A stretch of DNA of 64,000 nucleotides from Propionibacteriaceae bacterium. GTDB lineage: Bacteria; Actinomycetota; Actinomycetes; Propionibacteriales; Propionibacteriaceae. The position numbers and the translations under genes were made by a program. Shown piece by piece: positions 13,743 to 19,457 of this stretch (its first letter is position 1; every line of letters starts with the position of its first letter). The stretch is taken from NCBI GenBank assembly GCA_025965155.1, contig JAOPXN010000017.1, positions 1-64,000 of the forward strand, read 5' to 3'. Under the pieces are notes generated by a model. The model ran no database searches. It was given only the letters and a program-made list of their open reading frames with translations, and was not told where the DNA came from.

Positions 13743-13899
13743 CCTCCCGGCCGACGAAGCTCCAAACCTGGCCGTCACCGCACTGAACCTTAGTGACTCC
13801 ACCGTTGACAGGTGGCCTGGTTACTCTGCTGCTTACCTCCCGGCGTCGGCGAACCTCTCGTCGGCCGTCAGGTCCGGGCGGTAGCTCGTAGGGGTGGAC

Positions 13900-15975
13900 A
13901 TGGGTGAGGCACGGTCTGTCGGCCGCGCGCCGCGCGTGTGCGCGCTGCAGAACTCCCTGGTCCTCTCCAACGGCAGCGGCCTGCACCACTGGCAGAACCC
14001 GGATCCGGCCTCCGCGGCGAGCTGGGGCCGGATCACCGGTCCGGAGTCGCGACTCGAGGTCGTCGACCTGGCGGTGTGCCCTGACCTGAACGGCACCCAT
14101 CAGCAGCTTTTCGCGGCCACCGCCCGGCAGGGCATCCACAGCTGGACGTGGCAGCCGGACCGTACCGGGATGCCACGCTGGGTGCCCTGGCCCGCTTTAC
14201 ACTTCGAGCCACCTTTCGACGGCAGCCCCCGCGCGCTGACCTGCTGGAGCCTCCGCGCCGGCCACCAGGAGGTCGTGGTGGCGGGTGAGGACGGAGCCCT
14301 GTTCAGCCAGCGGCGGGACCGGTGGGGGGAGTGGTCCGGCCAGGTGCAGATCGGTCTGGTTCCCGGCGTGCGGTCGCTCGAGGCAGTGGTCGGCTCGGAC
14401 GGCACCGTACAGCTCTTCGCCCTGACCGGCACCGAGCTCAAGCGGAAGGTGCTTCCTCCTGTCGCGAACGGGTCCAGTATCTGGGGGGACGCTGAGCTGG
14501 TCGCGACCTGGCCGCAGCCGGTCAGCGCGCAGGCGTGCTGGAGCCTGGGTGAGCGCGACGACCACGCCGTGCTGCTTGCCTCCGGCGAGCTCCAGCAACG
14601 GCAACGGACGGCCGGAGGGCCGTGGGGGTTATGGTCCAACGCGACCGGTGCCGGTCCCGCGACCTCGCTCACCGCCCTCTCCGGCGCGGCGCTGGATCCC
14701 GAGCACCACCTGCTGGCCGCCGCCTCGGCGGACGGCTCCGTCGTGGTGAAGCAGTGGAGCTCGCTGCAGGGTTGGACGGGCTGGCGGCTGGTGGGCTCGG
14801 CGACGCCGGAGGTCCCAACCGAGGTCTGGTACGAGGCCGGCGCCGTCACGATCCCTACGCCGCCCGGAACCCCGAGCCGCCCCTCCGGCGGCGACGGCAG
14901 TGTGGGGACTGAGAGAGCGGGCCCCGCCGAACCATCTGTGCCACTGCCGGAGCCCGTCACCCGGCTGATTACCGGGCGGGAGCTGTTGCCGTTGCTGCCG
15001 GGTGAGCGGCGGGTGGGGCCGTTCCACCTGGTGAAGCGCATCGGTGGCGGACAACAGAGCACCGACAAGTACCTAGCCCGCGATCGACGCGGCTACTGCT
15101 TCCTGAAGGTCCTCAGGCCCGGGGCCACGGCGGACGAGGTGACCGCCTTCAACCGTGAGATCGAGATCGCACGGCGGGTCACCAACCGCCATCGGCTCAC
15201 CACCTACGTCGACCATTCCCCGGCACAGGATGGCTCTCCGGCCTTCCTTGCGCTGTCGTTCGTCGCGGGTCAGGACCTCAACGAGCAGCTGGGGTCACGG
15301 AGGCTGGAGGGCGCCGCGCTGCTGGACCTCGCCCAGCAGCTGCTGCGGGCGGTTGCCGAGCTGGCGGACTGCCAGGTGATCCACTGCGACGTGAAGCCGG
15401 CCAACATCATCATGCGGGACGCGACGGTTCCGGTCCTGGTCGACTTCGGCAGTGCCGTCACGGCCGACACCGAGACTGTCTGGGAGGCGGCCTTCGGCAC
15501 CAGCGGATATGCAGCGCCGGAGTTCAGCCGGGCCCGGGCCACGAACACCTACACCGATATGTACTCGTGGGCCGCCGTAGTGGTCTGGGCGGCGACCGGG
15601 GAGCCGCCCTCATCCGACGCTGAGGCGGCGAGCCAGCAGCTGCAGCGGCTGCCGCCGGTGCTCCGCGAGGTGGTCGCCGCGGCACTCCAGACCGACCCGA
15701 CCGCACGCCCCGACGTCGACTGGGCCCTTACCCGGCTCGGTCCGACGACACCCTCTCCCGAAGGCCTCATCCGGCAGCGGCTGCCGGTGGAGGCAGATCT
15801 GCCCAGCGGTCTGCAGGAGCGGGTCGCCAGACGGCGGACGGAGATCGTCACGACCGCGGCCGCCCTGTCGCAGTGGCAGTACCGCGGCATCATCGGCATC
15901 ATGGCCGTTGCCGGTATCGTTCTCGGGTTTGTGGCCGGGGTCATCCTCCGGCAGGTGCTGGAGGCGCTGTGGTGA
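13900..15975 (+). CDS. Ser/Thr protein kinase with N-terminal repetitive propeller-like domain and C-terminal TM
   Basis: Repeats with W-x-x-W pattern (GEWSGQVQIG, GPWGLWSNATG, QGWTGWRLVG), kinase motifs IGGGQQSTDKYLA, FLKVL, HCDVKPANIIM, VDFGSA, and terminal IIGIMAVAGIVLGFVAGVIL; no signal peptide. Confidence 0.88.
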   Translation: MGEARSVGRAPRVCALQNSLVLSNGSGLHHWQNPDPASAASWGRITGPESRLEVVDLAVCPDLNGTHQQLFAATARQGIHSWTWQPDRTGMPRWVPWPALHFEPPFDGSPRALTCWSLRAGHQEVVVAGEDGALFSQRRDRWGEWSGQVQIGLVPGVRSLEAVVGSDGTVQLFALTGTELKRKVLPPVANGSSIWGDAELVATWPQPVSAQACWSLGERDDHAVLLASGELQQRQRTAGGPWGLWSNATGAGPATSLTALSGAALDPEHHLLAAASADGSVVVKQWSSLQGWTGWRLVGSATPEVPTEVWYEAGAVTIPTPPGTPSRPSGGDGSVGTERAGPAEPSVPLPEPVTRLITGRELLPLLPGERRVGPFHLVKRIGGGQQSTDKYLARDRRGYCFLKVLRPGATADEVTAFNREIEIARRVTNRHRLTTYVDHSPAQDGSPAFLALSFVAGQDLNEQLGSRRLEGAALLDLAQQLLRAVAELADCQVIHCDVKPANIIMRDATVPVLVDFGSAVTADTETVWEAAFGTSGYAAPEFSRARATNTYTDMYSWAAVVVWAATGEPPSSDAEAASQQLQRLPPVLREVVAAALQTDPTARPDVDWALTRLGPTTPSPEGLIRQRLPVEADLPSGLQERVARRRTEIVTTAAALSQWQYRGIIGIMAVAGIVLGFVAGVILRQVLEALW

Positions 15976-16094
15976 ATCTTGCTCGTCGTCGTGATCTGCC
16001 GCTGACCCGCGGCCAGTTCCGGGTCCGGGTCTTCGCGGCCACGTTCGGCGTCTTGTTCCTGCTCACCTTGATCGTGGCGGCCGTCCGTGGCTAG
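15972..16094 (+). CDS. 40-aa single-TM micro-protein
   Basis: GTG start overlaps kinase stop (GTGA); VNLARRRDLPLTRGQFRVRVFAATFGVLFLLTLIVAAVRG; positive-inside N-terminus then one hydrophobic helix; its stop overlaps the next gene. Confidence 0.75.
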   Translation: MNLARRRDLPLTRGQFRVRVFAATFGVLFLLTLIVAAVRG

Positions 16095-17214
16095 GACGTA
16101 CTTCTGCCCCCGCTGCCTCGACACGGTCGGAGTGGAGCACGTGCTGTACCGCACCCGAAACGGCGAGCCGGCCGACAAGCCACGCGAGGAGTACGACAGA
16201 GGGTTCCGGGAGTGGGTCCAGGCGGTCTGGCAGGGGGACCCTGAGCCGATCCACCGGATCCATCCCCAGCGGCGTGCCGAGCGCGACCACCACGGCATCC
16301 ATGCCCAGTGCGGTCGTGGGCACCGCATCCCGCTACGAGCCTTCGACGTGCCATCGATGGTCGTGGGCCTGGTCGGCGAGCCGTCATCGGGCAAGACCGT
16401 CTACCTCGGCACCCTGCTGGAGCAGCTGGATCGTGGTCGGCTGCTCCCGTACCTCGACTTCCACCTCGACGAGCGGTCGCAGAAGATCCGCGCCGAGGTC
16501 TTCCACGACTTCTACACCTCCGGCGCCGTGCCGTTCCCAACGTCGGCCTACCAGGGTGATGCTGGGCGCGAGGCGATCACCGAGACGGCCGTCGCCGGGG
16601 ACACCGAGAAGTTCTATCTCTCGTTCTTCGACGCGTCGGGGGAGCAGAACAGCGTCGAGGACCAGGGCCGGACCAACAAGTTCCTGTACATCTCCGACGT
16701 CGTCATGCACTTCATCACCCCGGAGGCGCTGACCCTGCCCCGACGGTCGCTGAACCGGCGGGATGACCAGAGGCAGGCGTGGTTCATGACGAACCAGTGG
16801 ATCCAGACGGCCATCCGGAGCGGGGAACCGAAGCGGGCCCACGCAGCCGTCATCGTGACCAAGTCCGACGACATCGCTGCCGGTGCGCTGGACATCCTCG
16901 AGGACGCCCGCGAGGACCTCAACTACAGCGGCGAGCTTTCCCTGCTGCGCGCGGTCCAGGTGATCGAGGAGGACTCCCGCTACATCCGCGACTTCCTCCG
17001 GTCGCTGGATGGTGGGCTGCCGCTCTCGATCCGTTTCGAGGAGGCGTACCGGTCCGTCAGCTACCACCTGGTCTCAGCCACCGGCGAGCCAGCCGACCCG
17101 CAGACGCGGAGCTTCCGCAACCGGCGTCCTCAGCGGGTGCTGGATCCGCTGCTTGCGGCGCTGGTGCACACCGGGGTGCTCGACGCCCAGAAGGGGCTGC
17201 AGGTCCTGCGGTGA
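16087..17214 (+). CDS. Zinc-ribbon P-loop GTPase (TRAFAC-like, conflict-system type)
   Basis: CPRC...CGRGH zinc-binding motif, Walker A GLVGEPSSGKTVYLGTL, SFFDASGE G3, VIVTKSDD G4; GTG start overlaps upstream ORF. Confidence 0.8.
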   Translation: MARTYFCPRCLDTVGVEHVLYRTRNGEPADKPREEYDRGFREWVQAVWQGDPEPIHRIHPQRRAERDHHGIHAQCGRGHRIPLRAFDVPSMVVGLVGEPSSGKTVYLGTLLEQLDRGRLLPYLDFHLDERSQKIRAEVFHDFYTSGAVPFPTSAYQGDAGREAITETAVAGDTEKFYLSFFDASGEQNSVEDQGRTNKFLYISDVVMHFITPEALTLPRRSLNRRDDQRQAWFMTNQWIQTAIRSGEPKRAHAAVIVTKSDDIAAGALDILEDAREDLNYSGELSLLRAVQVIEEDSRYIRDFLRSLDGGLPLSIRFEEAYRSVSYHLVSATGEPADPQTRSFRNRRPQRVLDPLLAALVHTGVLDAQKGLQVLR

Positions 17215-18896
17215 CCTACGTCGCGTGCGAGCAGCTGCGCTACACCTGGGCCGAGCGCAGGCTGGACGGAAGCGGAGCCGGCTTCGGGGTCGTGCTCCAG
17301 TCGCGAGGGTGGCCGGCCCAGCTGATGCAGGATCCCGAGCTCAGGCAGGTGCTGACCGAACTCTCGTTGGCAGCGCGGCGGGTGTCCCCGGACGGACCTG
17401 AGGCTTTCCTGACCCACCTACGACGGGCGGGCGGGTCGTTGCTGGTCGCCAAGGGGCCCGTGGGAACCGACGGTGCCGGCCGACCGGGCAACTACTGCGT
17501 CCATGCTCTCTTCGACCCCACCTGCACCCTGGGGACGCTGGACCTGGAGCCGCTGCTGGCCAGTGGCACCTTCAGGCTCGAACGTGAGGTCGACAGCAGC
17601 CCCGAAGCCAGTGCCGAGCCGCTGCGGCTGTGGGTATCCGAGGACTGGTCCGACCGCGCGGAGAGGCTGCGGGGCGGTCGGTTCCAAGAAGGCGGTCGGG
17701 GCCCGGCACGGGCCACCCGGGCTGCGACATCCCAGCCCGACCTGCTGCGCCATTGGGATGTCGAGGACCTACACCAGATCCTGCAGGAGCTGGTTCGCAC
17801 CATGCCTGCCGACCTGGTGAACCAGACCGAGGTCCTGGGCGGGCAGGATGCCGGTCCGTCCGGGGGGACGCAGACCCAGCCCGCGGAGGCAAACGCCAGT
17901 TCCCGCGAGCTCTCTAGGTCGGCCGCCGAGCTTGGGGCAGCGGACCAGCCGATGTGGTGGCAACGTCGCGGTCTGATCGCCGCCGACTGGGAGAGCGAGC
18001 TCGACGAGTTCATCGTTTTGAACCAACCGGTGCACAAGGTCCCAGACGAGCGCCTCTGGTACCGGTGGGACCGCTCCGACGCGACTGGCCGCTGGGACAT
18101 AGCGAACGAGCTGCTGCACCGACCGGGGCTGGTCCGGGAAGAACGCGCCGCGGCGGCCGTGGCGAGCCGTCCGTCGTTAGTGGACGACATTACCGAGGCC
18201 GGTCTGGTGGGAGACGCGGATCGGCGCTCTGCTGCGGCCCGTTGGGTCGCGGAGGTGGGCAGCGACGCCCAGGTGATCGACCTCGCCGCCGAGCTGCTGT
18301 CGGCGGGACCCATGGCCAGGCTGCCGCCAACCCTGGTGGACCGGCTGACGCAGCTTGGGCCGGAGGATCTGCCCGCGGTTGTGGCGGACGGCGTGATGCA
18401 GTCCCTGGACGGGTCTGCATCCCTGCCGGCTGCGTGGCGAGTTGCCTGTCTGCGCAGCTACCTGCTCGGACGCCCCGGTTGTCCGGAGCCTCAGCGGGTG
18501 GCCGACGCGTGCTCCGATGAGGAGCTCACCGACGCCATGCGGGATGCAGCCGATTCCGGCGGCAGCCTCGACGAGTCCTGGGAGAGACTCAGCGACCTGG
18601 TTCCCGCGGCTCGCCGGGACCGCAGCTTCGCGGCTGCGTCGAAGGCGTCGGCGGACTACCTGCTCACCCACGCCGCCACAGAGCGCCAGCCAACCAGCGG
18701 CAGCTATTGGGAGGTGCTCTGGCCCTTAGTTGCAGTCACGTCCGGCTGGTCGCCGGCCGTCCGCGATCTGCTCCCACATGGCCGGCGCCGGGAACGGAGG
18801 CTGCGGGCACAGCGGCTTGCACTGCTGGTCACCGCTGCGCTGTTGGCGGTGACCGTGGTGGTCCTGGTCGTTCTGCTCCTGGTTCGCGCCCGCTGA
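17211..18896 (+). CDS. GAP1-like (GTPase-associated protein) tail-anchored membrane protein
   Basis: GTG start overlaps GTPase stop (GTGA); N-terminus EQLRYTWAERRLDGSGAGFGVVLQSRGWP resembles GAP1 N-terminal domain; C-terminal TM LALLVTAALLAVTVVVLVVLLLV. Confidence 0.7.
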   Translation: MTYVACEQLRYTWAERRLDGSGAGFGVVLQSRGWPAQLMQDPELRQVLTELSLAARRVSPDGPEAFLTHLRRAGGSLLVAKGPVGTDGAGRPGNYCVHALFDPTCTLGTLDLEPLLASGTFRLEREVDSSPEASAEPLRLWVSEDWSDRAERLRGGRFQEGGRGPARATRAATSQPDLLRHWDVEDLHQILQELVRTMPADLVNQTEVLGGQDAGPSGGTQTQPAEANASSRELSRSAAELGAADQPMWWQRRGLIAADWESELDEFIVLNQPVHKVPDERLWYRWDRSDATGRWDIANELLHRPGLVREERAAAAVASRPSLVDDITEAGLVGDADRRSAAARWVAEVGSDAQVIDLAAELLSAGPMARLPPTLVDRLTQLGPEDLPAVVADGVMQSLDGSASLPAAWRVACLRSYLLGRPGCPEPQRVADACSDEELTDAMRDAADSGGSLDESWERLSDLVPAARRDRSFAAASKASADYLLTHAATERQPTSGSYWEVLWPLVAVTSGWSPAVRDLLPHGRRRERRLRAQRLALLVTAALLAVTVVVLVVLLLVRAR

Positions 18897-18929: not shown

Positions 18930-19316
18930 GTGAGCATCACGACGGAGGAGATCCGCGCCCTGGAGCGGATCGCGCACCTCTGTGCTCAGCACGGGCCCGC
19001 CCGCATCCGCATCCGGAACGTGGAGGGGTACGGCGACGTCACGCTGCACAAGAGCAGCGGTGTCCTGCGGTGGCATTCGATGAGGTCCATTGACTACGCG
19101 GTCGTCTTCGGACCCAAGGCGCCGTGGTGGGCACGGCTGAAAGACTCGCTCTGGGGCGAGCGACCCGCCAGCGCGAGAGAGTGGCAGCTGCTCCGGGACG
19201 TGTTTCTCGGGCCGGTGATCAAGGCGACGGCTGCACAAGCGGCAAGACGGCTGGACGGAGGCGTGGACCTGGAGATCCGGCGGCACCTCCTCAGCGCTCA
19301 GATCCCGTACCCCTAG
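18930..19316 (+). CDS. Hypothetical protein
   Basis: 128-aa GTG-start ORF, same strand, 33 bp after the GAP1-like gene; ends just before a strong hairpin. Confidence 0.6.
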   Translation: MSITTEEIRALERIAHLCAQHGPARIRIRNVEGYGDVTLHKSSGVLRWHSMRSIDYAVVFGPKAPWWARLKDSLWGERPASAREWQLLRDVFLGPVIKATAAQAARRLDGGVDLEIRRHLLSAQIPYP

Positions 19317-19380: not shown

Positions 19381-19457
19381 TGGGGTGAGTGACGGGACTC
19401 GAACCCGCGGCCACCTGGACCACAACCAGGAGCTCTACCAGCTGAGCTACACCCACC
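19381..19457 (-). tRNA. tRNA-His (anticodon GTG)
   Basis: Reverse complement GGTGGGTGTAGCTCAGCTGGTAGAGCTCCTGGTTGTGGTCCAGGTGGCCGCGGGTTCGAGTCCCGTCACTCACCCCA, including the G-1. Confidence 0.95.

Follow-up and report, generated by a model that had tools for sequence, protein, structure and literature searches.

GTPase-centric systems built on GAP1-N2 proteins were predicted by Kaur, Burroughs, Iyer, and Aravind in 2020 (PMC7159879), in 904 organisms (Table 1 of that study). A kinase theme, the third described for them, occurs in 10% of GAP1-N2 neighborhoods, in which kinases are fused to β-rich domains or transmembrane (TM) helices and PP2C and vWA genes are usually linked; the GTPases of these systems usually carry two zinc ribbons, and both TM and pore-forming (SLATT) effectors have been reported (PMC7159879). 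A full-text literature search for DO-GTPase or GAP1-N2 returned this study and one further paper with a single mention, and no experimental paper. Here we analyzed the first 64,000 nucleotides of contig JAOPXN010000017.1 from a Propionibacteriaceae bacterium (the window), which contain a compact four-gene cassette encoding a protein kinase, a TM micro-protein, a DO-GTPase2-type GTPase, and a GAP1-N2-type protein. Sequence comparison identifies the four genes by family, catalytic motifs, and tail anchors, and shows that they are conserved as a unit.

The cassette and its four products

Inspection of open reading frames (ORFs) at 13894–18896 revealed four on the same strand, each overlapping the next: by 4 nt between the kinase and the micro-gene (GTG at 15972), 8 nt between the micro-gene and the GTPase gene (GTG at 16087), and 4 nt between the GTPase and GAP1-like genes (GTG at 17211). 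For the kinase, an ATG at 13900 is a possible start in place of the GTG at 13894. Hydropathy located TM segments at the extreme C terminus of three of the four products (kinase, micro-protein, and GAP1-like protein) and none in the GTPase. An earlier note on this DNA had described these starts and overlaps, TM segments in the same three products, and the motifs HCDVKPANIIM, CPRC...CGRGH, and GEPSSGKT; all were found as described. Consensus promoter and terminator scans were uninformative. The features are as follows.

13894..15975, + strand: protein kinase, 693 aa (Pkinase PF00069, 83.7 bits; propeller by model and Foldseek; TM by hydropathy)
15972..16094, + strand: micro-protein of 40 aa, basic and tail-anchored by a single TM segment, VNLARRRDLPLTRGQFRVRVFAATFGVLFLLTLIVAAVRG (position, size class, and topology kept in 11 cassettes)
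16087..17214, + strand: DO-GTPase2-type TRAFAC GTPase, 375 aa, no TM (PF19993; alignments of relatives)
17211..18896, + strand: GAP1-N2-type protein, 561 aa (PF20013; hhalign to canonical GAP1; AF2 model)

The order kinase, 39–59 aa TM peptide, DO-GTPase, and GAP1 recurs in 11 of 199 Propionibacteriaceae genomes, spread over five genera. Whole-genome searches covered these 199 genomes together with samples at the level of class (∼300 genomes), order (397), and phylum (397), and genes were called in the window and 47 fetched neighborhoods; a contig scan with one alignment gave three loci only. Gene calling found eight of the 11 cassettes complete (the window, L010 from Microlunatus kandeliicorticis, L011, L012, L077, L078, L079, and L081). 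Of the incomplete ones, L080 has its GAP1 gene cut by the contig end, L083 ends inside the GTPase gene, and L082 (8940–11922, genome G195) has split GTPase and GAP1 frames, which may reflect decay of the copy or an error in sequencing. Kinase, GTPase, and GAP1 protein diverge together, their pairwise identities being closely correlated (r 0.97–0.99 over 28 pairs; 0.93–0.98 without close pairs). The co-conservation of the four genes in related genomes on which the earlier note had staked its proposal is thus borne out by 11 genomes with correlated divergence. Identities of the micro-protein correlate less with those of its partners (0.82–0.87; 0.50–0.62 without close pairs), in keeping with a short TM peptide that changes fast. 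Among the sampled class, order, and phylum genomes outside Propionibacteriaceae, no GTPase was equally close; the few phylum matches below E 1e-20 all belonged to a single other family, and L097 and L107, the two loci fetched among them, have the larger canonical organization, which includes a second GTPase.

Taken on its own, the micro-ORF is weak evidence of a gene: when its inner bases are shuffled, 59% of the resulting sequences stay open and 2.9% are both open and TM-like. Its reality is settled by sequence conservation, because an ORF of 39–59 aa with a C-terminal TM segment lies at the same junction, between kinase and GTPase, in 11 of 11 cassettes, constant in size class, position, and topology; a chance micro-ORF was rejected on this basis. 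Within the window's genus the micro-proteins share a similar R-[VI]-R-V...TFG core. Of five close pairs compared, four have a micro-gene dN/dS below 1; the micro-protein diverges faster than its cassette partners. A term search of the main text of PMC7159879 found no mention of the micro-protein. Neither NCBIfam nor PADLOC gave a match for the micro-protein, the GTPase, or the GAP1-like protein, and PDB sequence searches with the GTPase, the GAP1-like protein, and the kinase propeller returned no relative.

Profile searches gave both the TRAFAC and the GAP1 similarity on which the earlier note had made its proposal depend. The 16087 product, which it had called a zinc-ribbon GTPase, matches PF19993 (DO-GTPase2) at 37.3 bits against a Pfam curated cut-off of 27, and is the sole DO-GTPase2 in the host genome. 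Its motifs are G1 GEPSSGKT, G3 DASGE (within FFDASGE, which includes the conserved Walker B Glu of the DO-GTPase class), a G4-like TKSD, and a G5-like SATG. One zinc ribbon (C7/C10...C75/H79) is invariant in nine of nine aligned cassette GTPases, and a second was not seen. In the distant cassettes L012 and L077–L081, the P-loop Gly before Lys is Ser or Thr (GPTAVSKS, GPSSVSKS, GSPQTTKT), with Lys invariant.

The 17211 product, proposed to have a GAP1-like N terminus, matches PF20013 (GAP1-N2) at 38.0 bits against a curated cut-off of 24. Among cassette proteins, those of the window and L011 lie above this cut-off and that of L010 just below, while those of other genera match nothing in this Pfam search. 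Comparison of eight cassette with 11 canonical GAP1 sequences by hhalign gave 97.7% probability (E 1.5e-12), over the N domain and the opening part of the M domain only. The predicted layout comprises GAP1-N2 (residues 7–104), a partial GAP1-M-like stretch that hhalign reaches into and Pfam does not match, a helical solenoid (∼290–510), and the TM segment (533–561). GAP1-C was detected by neither Pfam nor hhalign in the cassette protein, the canonical control L106 matching N2, M, and C; the region where GAP1-C was sought is helical in the AF2 model. In that model (three sequences, mean pLDDT 63.6), residues 2–155 follow the strand (b) and helix (a) order bb-a-bbb-a-a, succeeded by a poorly predicted linker, the solenoid, and the TM helix. 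Foldseek matches to longin/roadblock regulators included FLCN-FNIP2 (prob 0.98), KICSTOR, HBXIP/LAMTOR5, SEAC-EGOC, and MON1-CCZ1, with E values of 0.09 and worse (0.02 and worse for all matches, PAS domains among them); from their size and fold, we infer that the longin matches align to the N domain. A longin-like topology for GAP1-N2, the fold of eukaryotic GTPase regulators, is therefore offered with low confidence, as a lead and not a result. If true, it would account for the way in which GAP1-N2 acts on its GTPase. The main text of PMC7159879 mentions neither longin nor roadblock.

The kinase is predicted to comprise a PLL-lectin-type β-propeller (∼residues 14–302), a disordered linker, a Ser/Thr kinase domain (377–583), and a tail-anchor TM segment (663–693). 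Catalytic residues are intact (K405, HCDVKPAN at 497–504, DFG at 517–519), so that the product joins intact catalytic residues (Pkinase, 83.7 bits) to a β-rich domain and a TM segment, either of which marks the kinase theme. The catalytic K, HxDxKPxN, and DF/DY are retained across the cassette kinases examined, which for this reason look catalytically active; in L012 and L077–L082 DFG is replaced by DFE or DYE, with HxDxKPxN intact. Residues 1–345 were modeled as all-β with 24 strands (mean pLDDT 76.6, pTM 0.78, from two sequences), and the best Foldseek matches are the Photorhabdus PLL/PHL lectins (PDB 5mxh and 5c9o; E from 7e-11, TM-score ∼0.55), consistent with the propeller that the earlier note had placed at this N terminus. 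The likeness is one of fold, at an identity of ∼17%; unlike these lectins, the window's propeller is joined to a kinase and is predicted to lie in the cytosol. This location is the most likely one because the sole TM segment is C terminal, after the kinase domain; by the same reasoning, from TM segments at the extreme C terminus, all non-TM domains of the tethered proteins are placed in the cytosol. As part of the cassette architecture, the propeller-kinase was found only in the window and its two congeners, both congeneric kinases having a related region; the shorter kinases of other genera lack it. PADLOC reported similarity to the PD-T4-6 and MADS MAD6 defense kinases, but these were generic kinase-domain matches only (80.8 for MAD6 in NCBIfam, where the cut-off is 460), with no partner genes seen in common.

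Genomic setting of the cassette

Three of 20 genomes of the window's genus carry the cassette, at three different sites. G010, a congener, carries the window's LacI–MFS_2–Lar block at 1.29 Mb and the window's RNase_T–MFS–tRNA-His block ∼1.8 Mb away at 3.06 Mb, with a cassette of its own elsewhere, at 4.06 Mb. Because the window's flanks and the cassette all lie apart in G010, the cassette changes chromosomal place; its presence in few genomes of the genus, at differing sites, gives it an accessory character. A housekeeping operon with Lar_N or RNase_T was ruled out, these flanks being apart and cassette-free in congeners. Carriage by a plasmid or phage was rejected for want of a match for the GTPase. 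A tRNA-His gene (19381–19456, minus strand) lies 485 bases past the cassette, its 3′ end toward the cassette, and adjoins RNase_T in congeners too; an integrative element at this tRNA was discarded as an explanation, since there is no 3′-end repeat near the cassette and the other cassettes examined have no tRNA nearby. Directly after the cassette lies a 128-aa ORF (18930–19316, + strand) with no family match and no similar protein at the L010 or L011 cassettes.

The nearest flanking genes scanned, at the window and eight other loci, are metabolic or lack an assigned function, and include no FNIII, PP2C, vWA, tubulin, HSP70, or second GTPase. The only fn3 match in the cassette and flanks scanned fell in an Fn3-like domain belonging to a GH3 enzyme, although fast-evolving FNIII repeats could escape such a search. 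The window's cassette and those of its two congeners sit among genes for glycoside hydrolases, sugar transport, or Lar_N. Together with the sugar-binding nature of PLL/PHL lectins and with related DO-GTPase loci of another family that encode FtsW or FtsW-transpeptidase proteins, these neighbors could fit envelope or carbohydrate signaling, in which the lectin-like propeller would sense a sugar or a precursor of the cell wall, and the switch would tune metabolism or wall synthesis rather than defense. We regard this as unlikely: the propeller is confined to one genus, flanks are not kept between genera, and a frequency of 11 in 199 is unlike that of a housekeeping pathway.

A proposed kinase–GTPase switch

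The explanation that we favor, with moderate confidence, is a compact membrane-tethered kinase–GTPase switch on a DO-GTPase2/GAP1-N2 core. The kinase propeller of the window's genus would probably read a cytosolic ligand, and the kinase would phosphorylate the GTPase or the GAP1 protein and so gate the pair. The GAP1-N2 domain would bind the GTPase and set its nucleotide state, with the helical solenoid carrying the output, and the micro-protein would either dock the GTPase, itself soluble, at the membrane or modulate the kinase. The role of the cassette would probably be conflict- or stress-related. A more ambitious version, a distinct bacterial G-protein switch of four components in which the micro-protein is constant and obligate to the core, GAP1-N2 is a prokaryotic longin-type regulator, and the whole is an analogue of eukaryotic membrane-docked Rag/Rab regulator complexes, appears doubtful.

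Several points weigh against the favored explanation. No defense island was found among ten nearby proteins, nor any phage or plasmid relative of the GTPase, results that give a conflict role no direct support. The micro-proteins are too diverged across genera to establish homology outright. In the tree the cassette GTPases are set apart by a branch with an SH-aLRT of 22, weak support for their monophyly and thus for a single origin of the cassette. The longin-like fold comes from the three-sequence model of mean pLDDT 63.6, with Foldseek E values of ∼0.1.

Two further accounts differ in the part given to the micro-protein. In an anti-phage or abortive system, the micro-protein would be the effector, a kinase-released GTPase/GAP1 switch letting the peptide oligomerize and damage the membrane. 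No other effector candidate exists in the cassette, TM and SLATT effectors are reported for GAP1-N2 systems (PMC7159879), and the rapid divergence of the micro-protein and the patchy distribution and shifting sites of the cassette are all compatible with such a function. However, the micro-protein is constant in every cassette and not swapped like the variable effectors of GAP1-N2 systems, and neither a PADLOC match for it, the GTPase, or GAP1 nor a defense island among ten neighbors was found, which leaves this account improbable in our estimation. Alternatively, the switch may be the same and the micro-protein a modulator of the kinase instead of a dock for the GTPase. Its counterpart would be CvnF of the conservons, actinobacterial G-protein systems whose CvnA–D include a kinase, a GTPase, and a GTPase regulator; CvnF accessory proteins stimulate the histidine kinase and occur with kinases lacking extracytoplasmic sensors (PMC13343842), as in the cassette. 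The micro-gene directly follows the kinase gene, overlapping it in the window, and both products are single-pass with C-terminal tails, so that their TM segments could pair. Yet the micro-gene equally overlaps the GTPase start, and CvnF is an unrelated protein that serves as an analogy only; we hold this account as a tentative one, somewhat less doubtful than an effector. Our confidence in these accounts overlaps and does not sum to one, because kinase modulation is shared with the favored switch.

Comparison with described G-protein systems

Membership in the conservons themselves was ruled out by Pfam families (Pkinase and DO-GTPase2) and by the host, whose whole genome (G000) has no Robl_LC7 (PF03259) match and no apparent conservon-type G-protein system. 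The conservon is nonetheless the nearest working analogue: both are four-gene operons of kinase, GTPase, and regulator, and the cassette is proposed to act in a similar way, by a GTPase switch under kinase control. The cassette has a Ser/Thr kinase, DO-GTPase2, and GAP1-N2, whereas the conservon has a histidine kinase, a Ras-like GTPase, and Roadblock.

Other DO-GTPase loci among those fetched have different partners. At L114 (3580–11656; also L116), from another actinobacterial family, a 969-aa FtsW/RodA–transpeptidase fusion (PF01098 and PF00905) lies near a DO-GTPase/kinase pair, and L098 has a weaker FtsW match within a DO-GTPase run, which suggests that some DO-GTPase systems are linked to cell-wall synthesis. 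At L103 (1584–11986), a Tubulin_2-like protein, a kinase-like gene, a DO-GTPase, and a 594-aa protein form one run, combining components of the tubulin and kinase themes that PMC7159879 lists as non-overlapping.

The closest described relative is the GAP1-N2 kinase theme. Shared with it are a DO-GTPase2 bearing DxxGE and a zinc ribbon at the N terminus, a GAP1-N2 protein just downstream with a C-terminal TM segment, a linked intact kinase with β-rich domain and TM segment, and an actinobacterial host. In contrast, the cassettes examined have no detected FNIII, PP2C, or vWA, a single GTPase with one zinc ribbon, no detected GAP1-C, and in addition the conserved 39–59 aa tail-anchored micro-protein. 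By its core pair the cassette is assigned to the GAP1-N2 kind, and because the FNIII, PP2C, vWA, and GAP1-C parts are missing, it is not classed as a canonical system. These absences indicate that the published FNIII, PP2C, vWA, second GTPase, and GAP1-C parts are dispensable to the core, and the cassette adds an overlooked micro-protein gene to GAP1-N2 systems. Whereas the usual systems are large and variable, this 5-kb four-gene unit is compact enough to be cloned in one piece and dissected. The earlier note did not recognize the architecture as characterized; the linkage of a kinase to DO-GTPase and GAP1-N2 is already described (PMC7159879), and what is new here is the minimal four-gene form together with its micro-protein.

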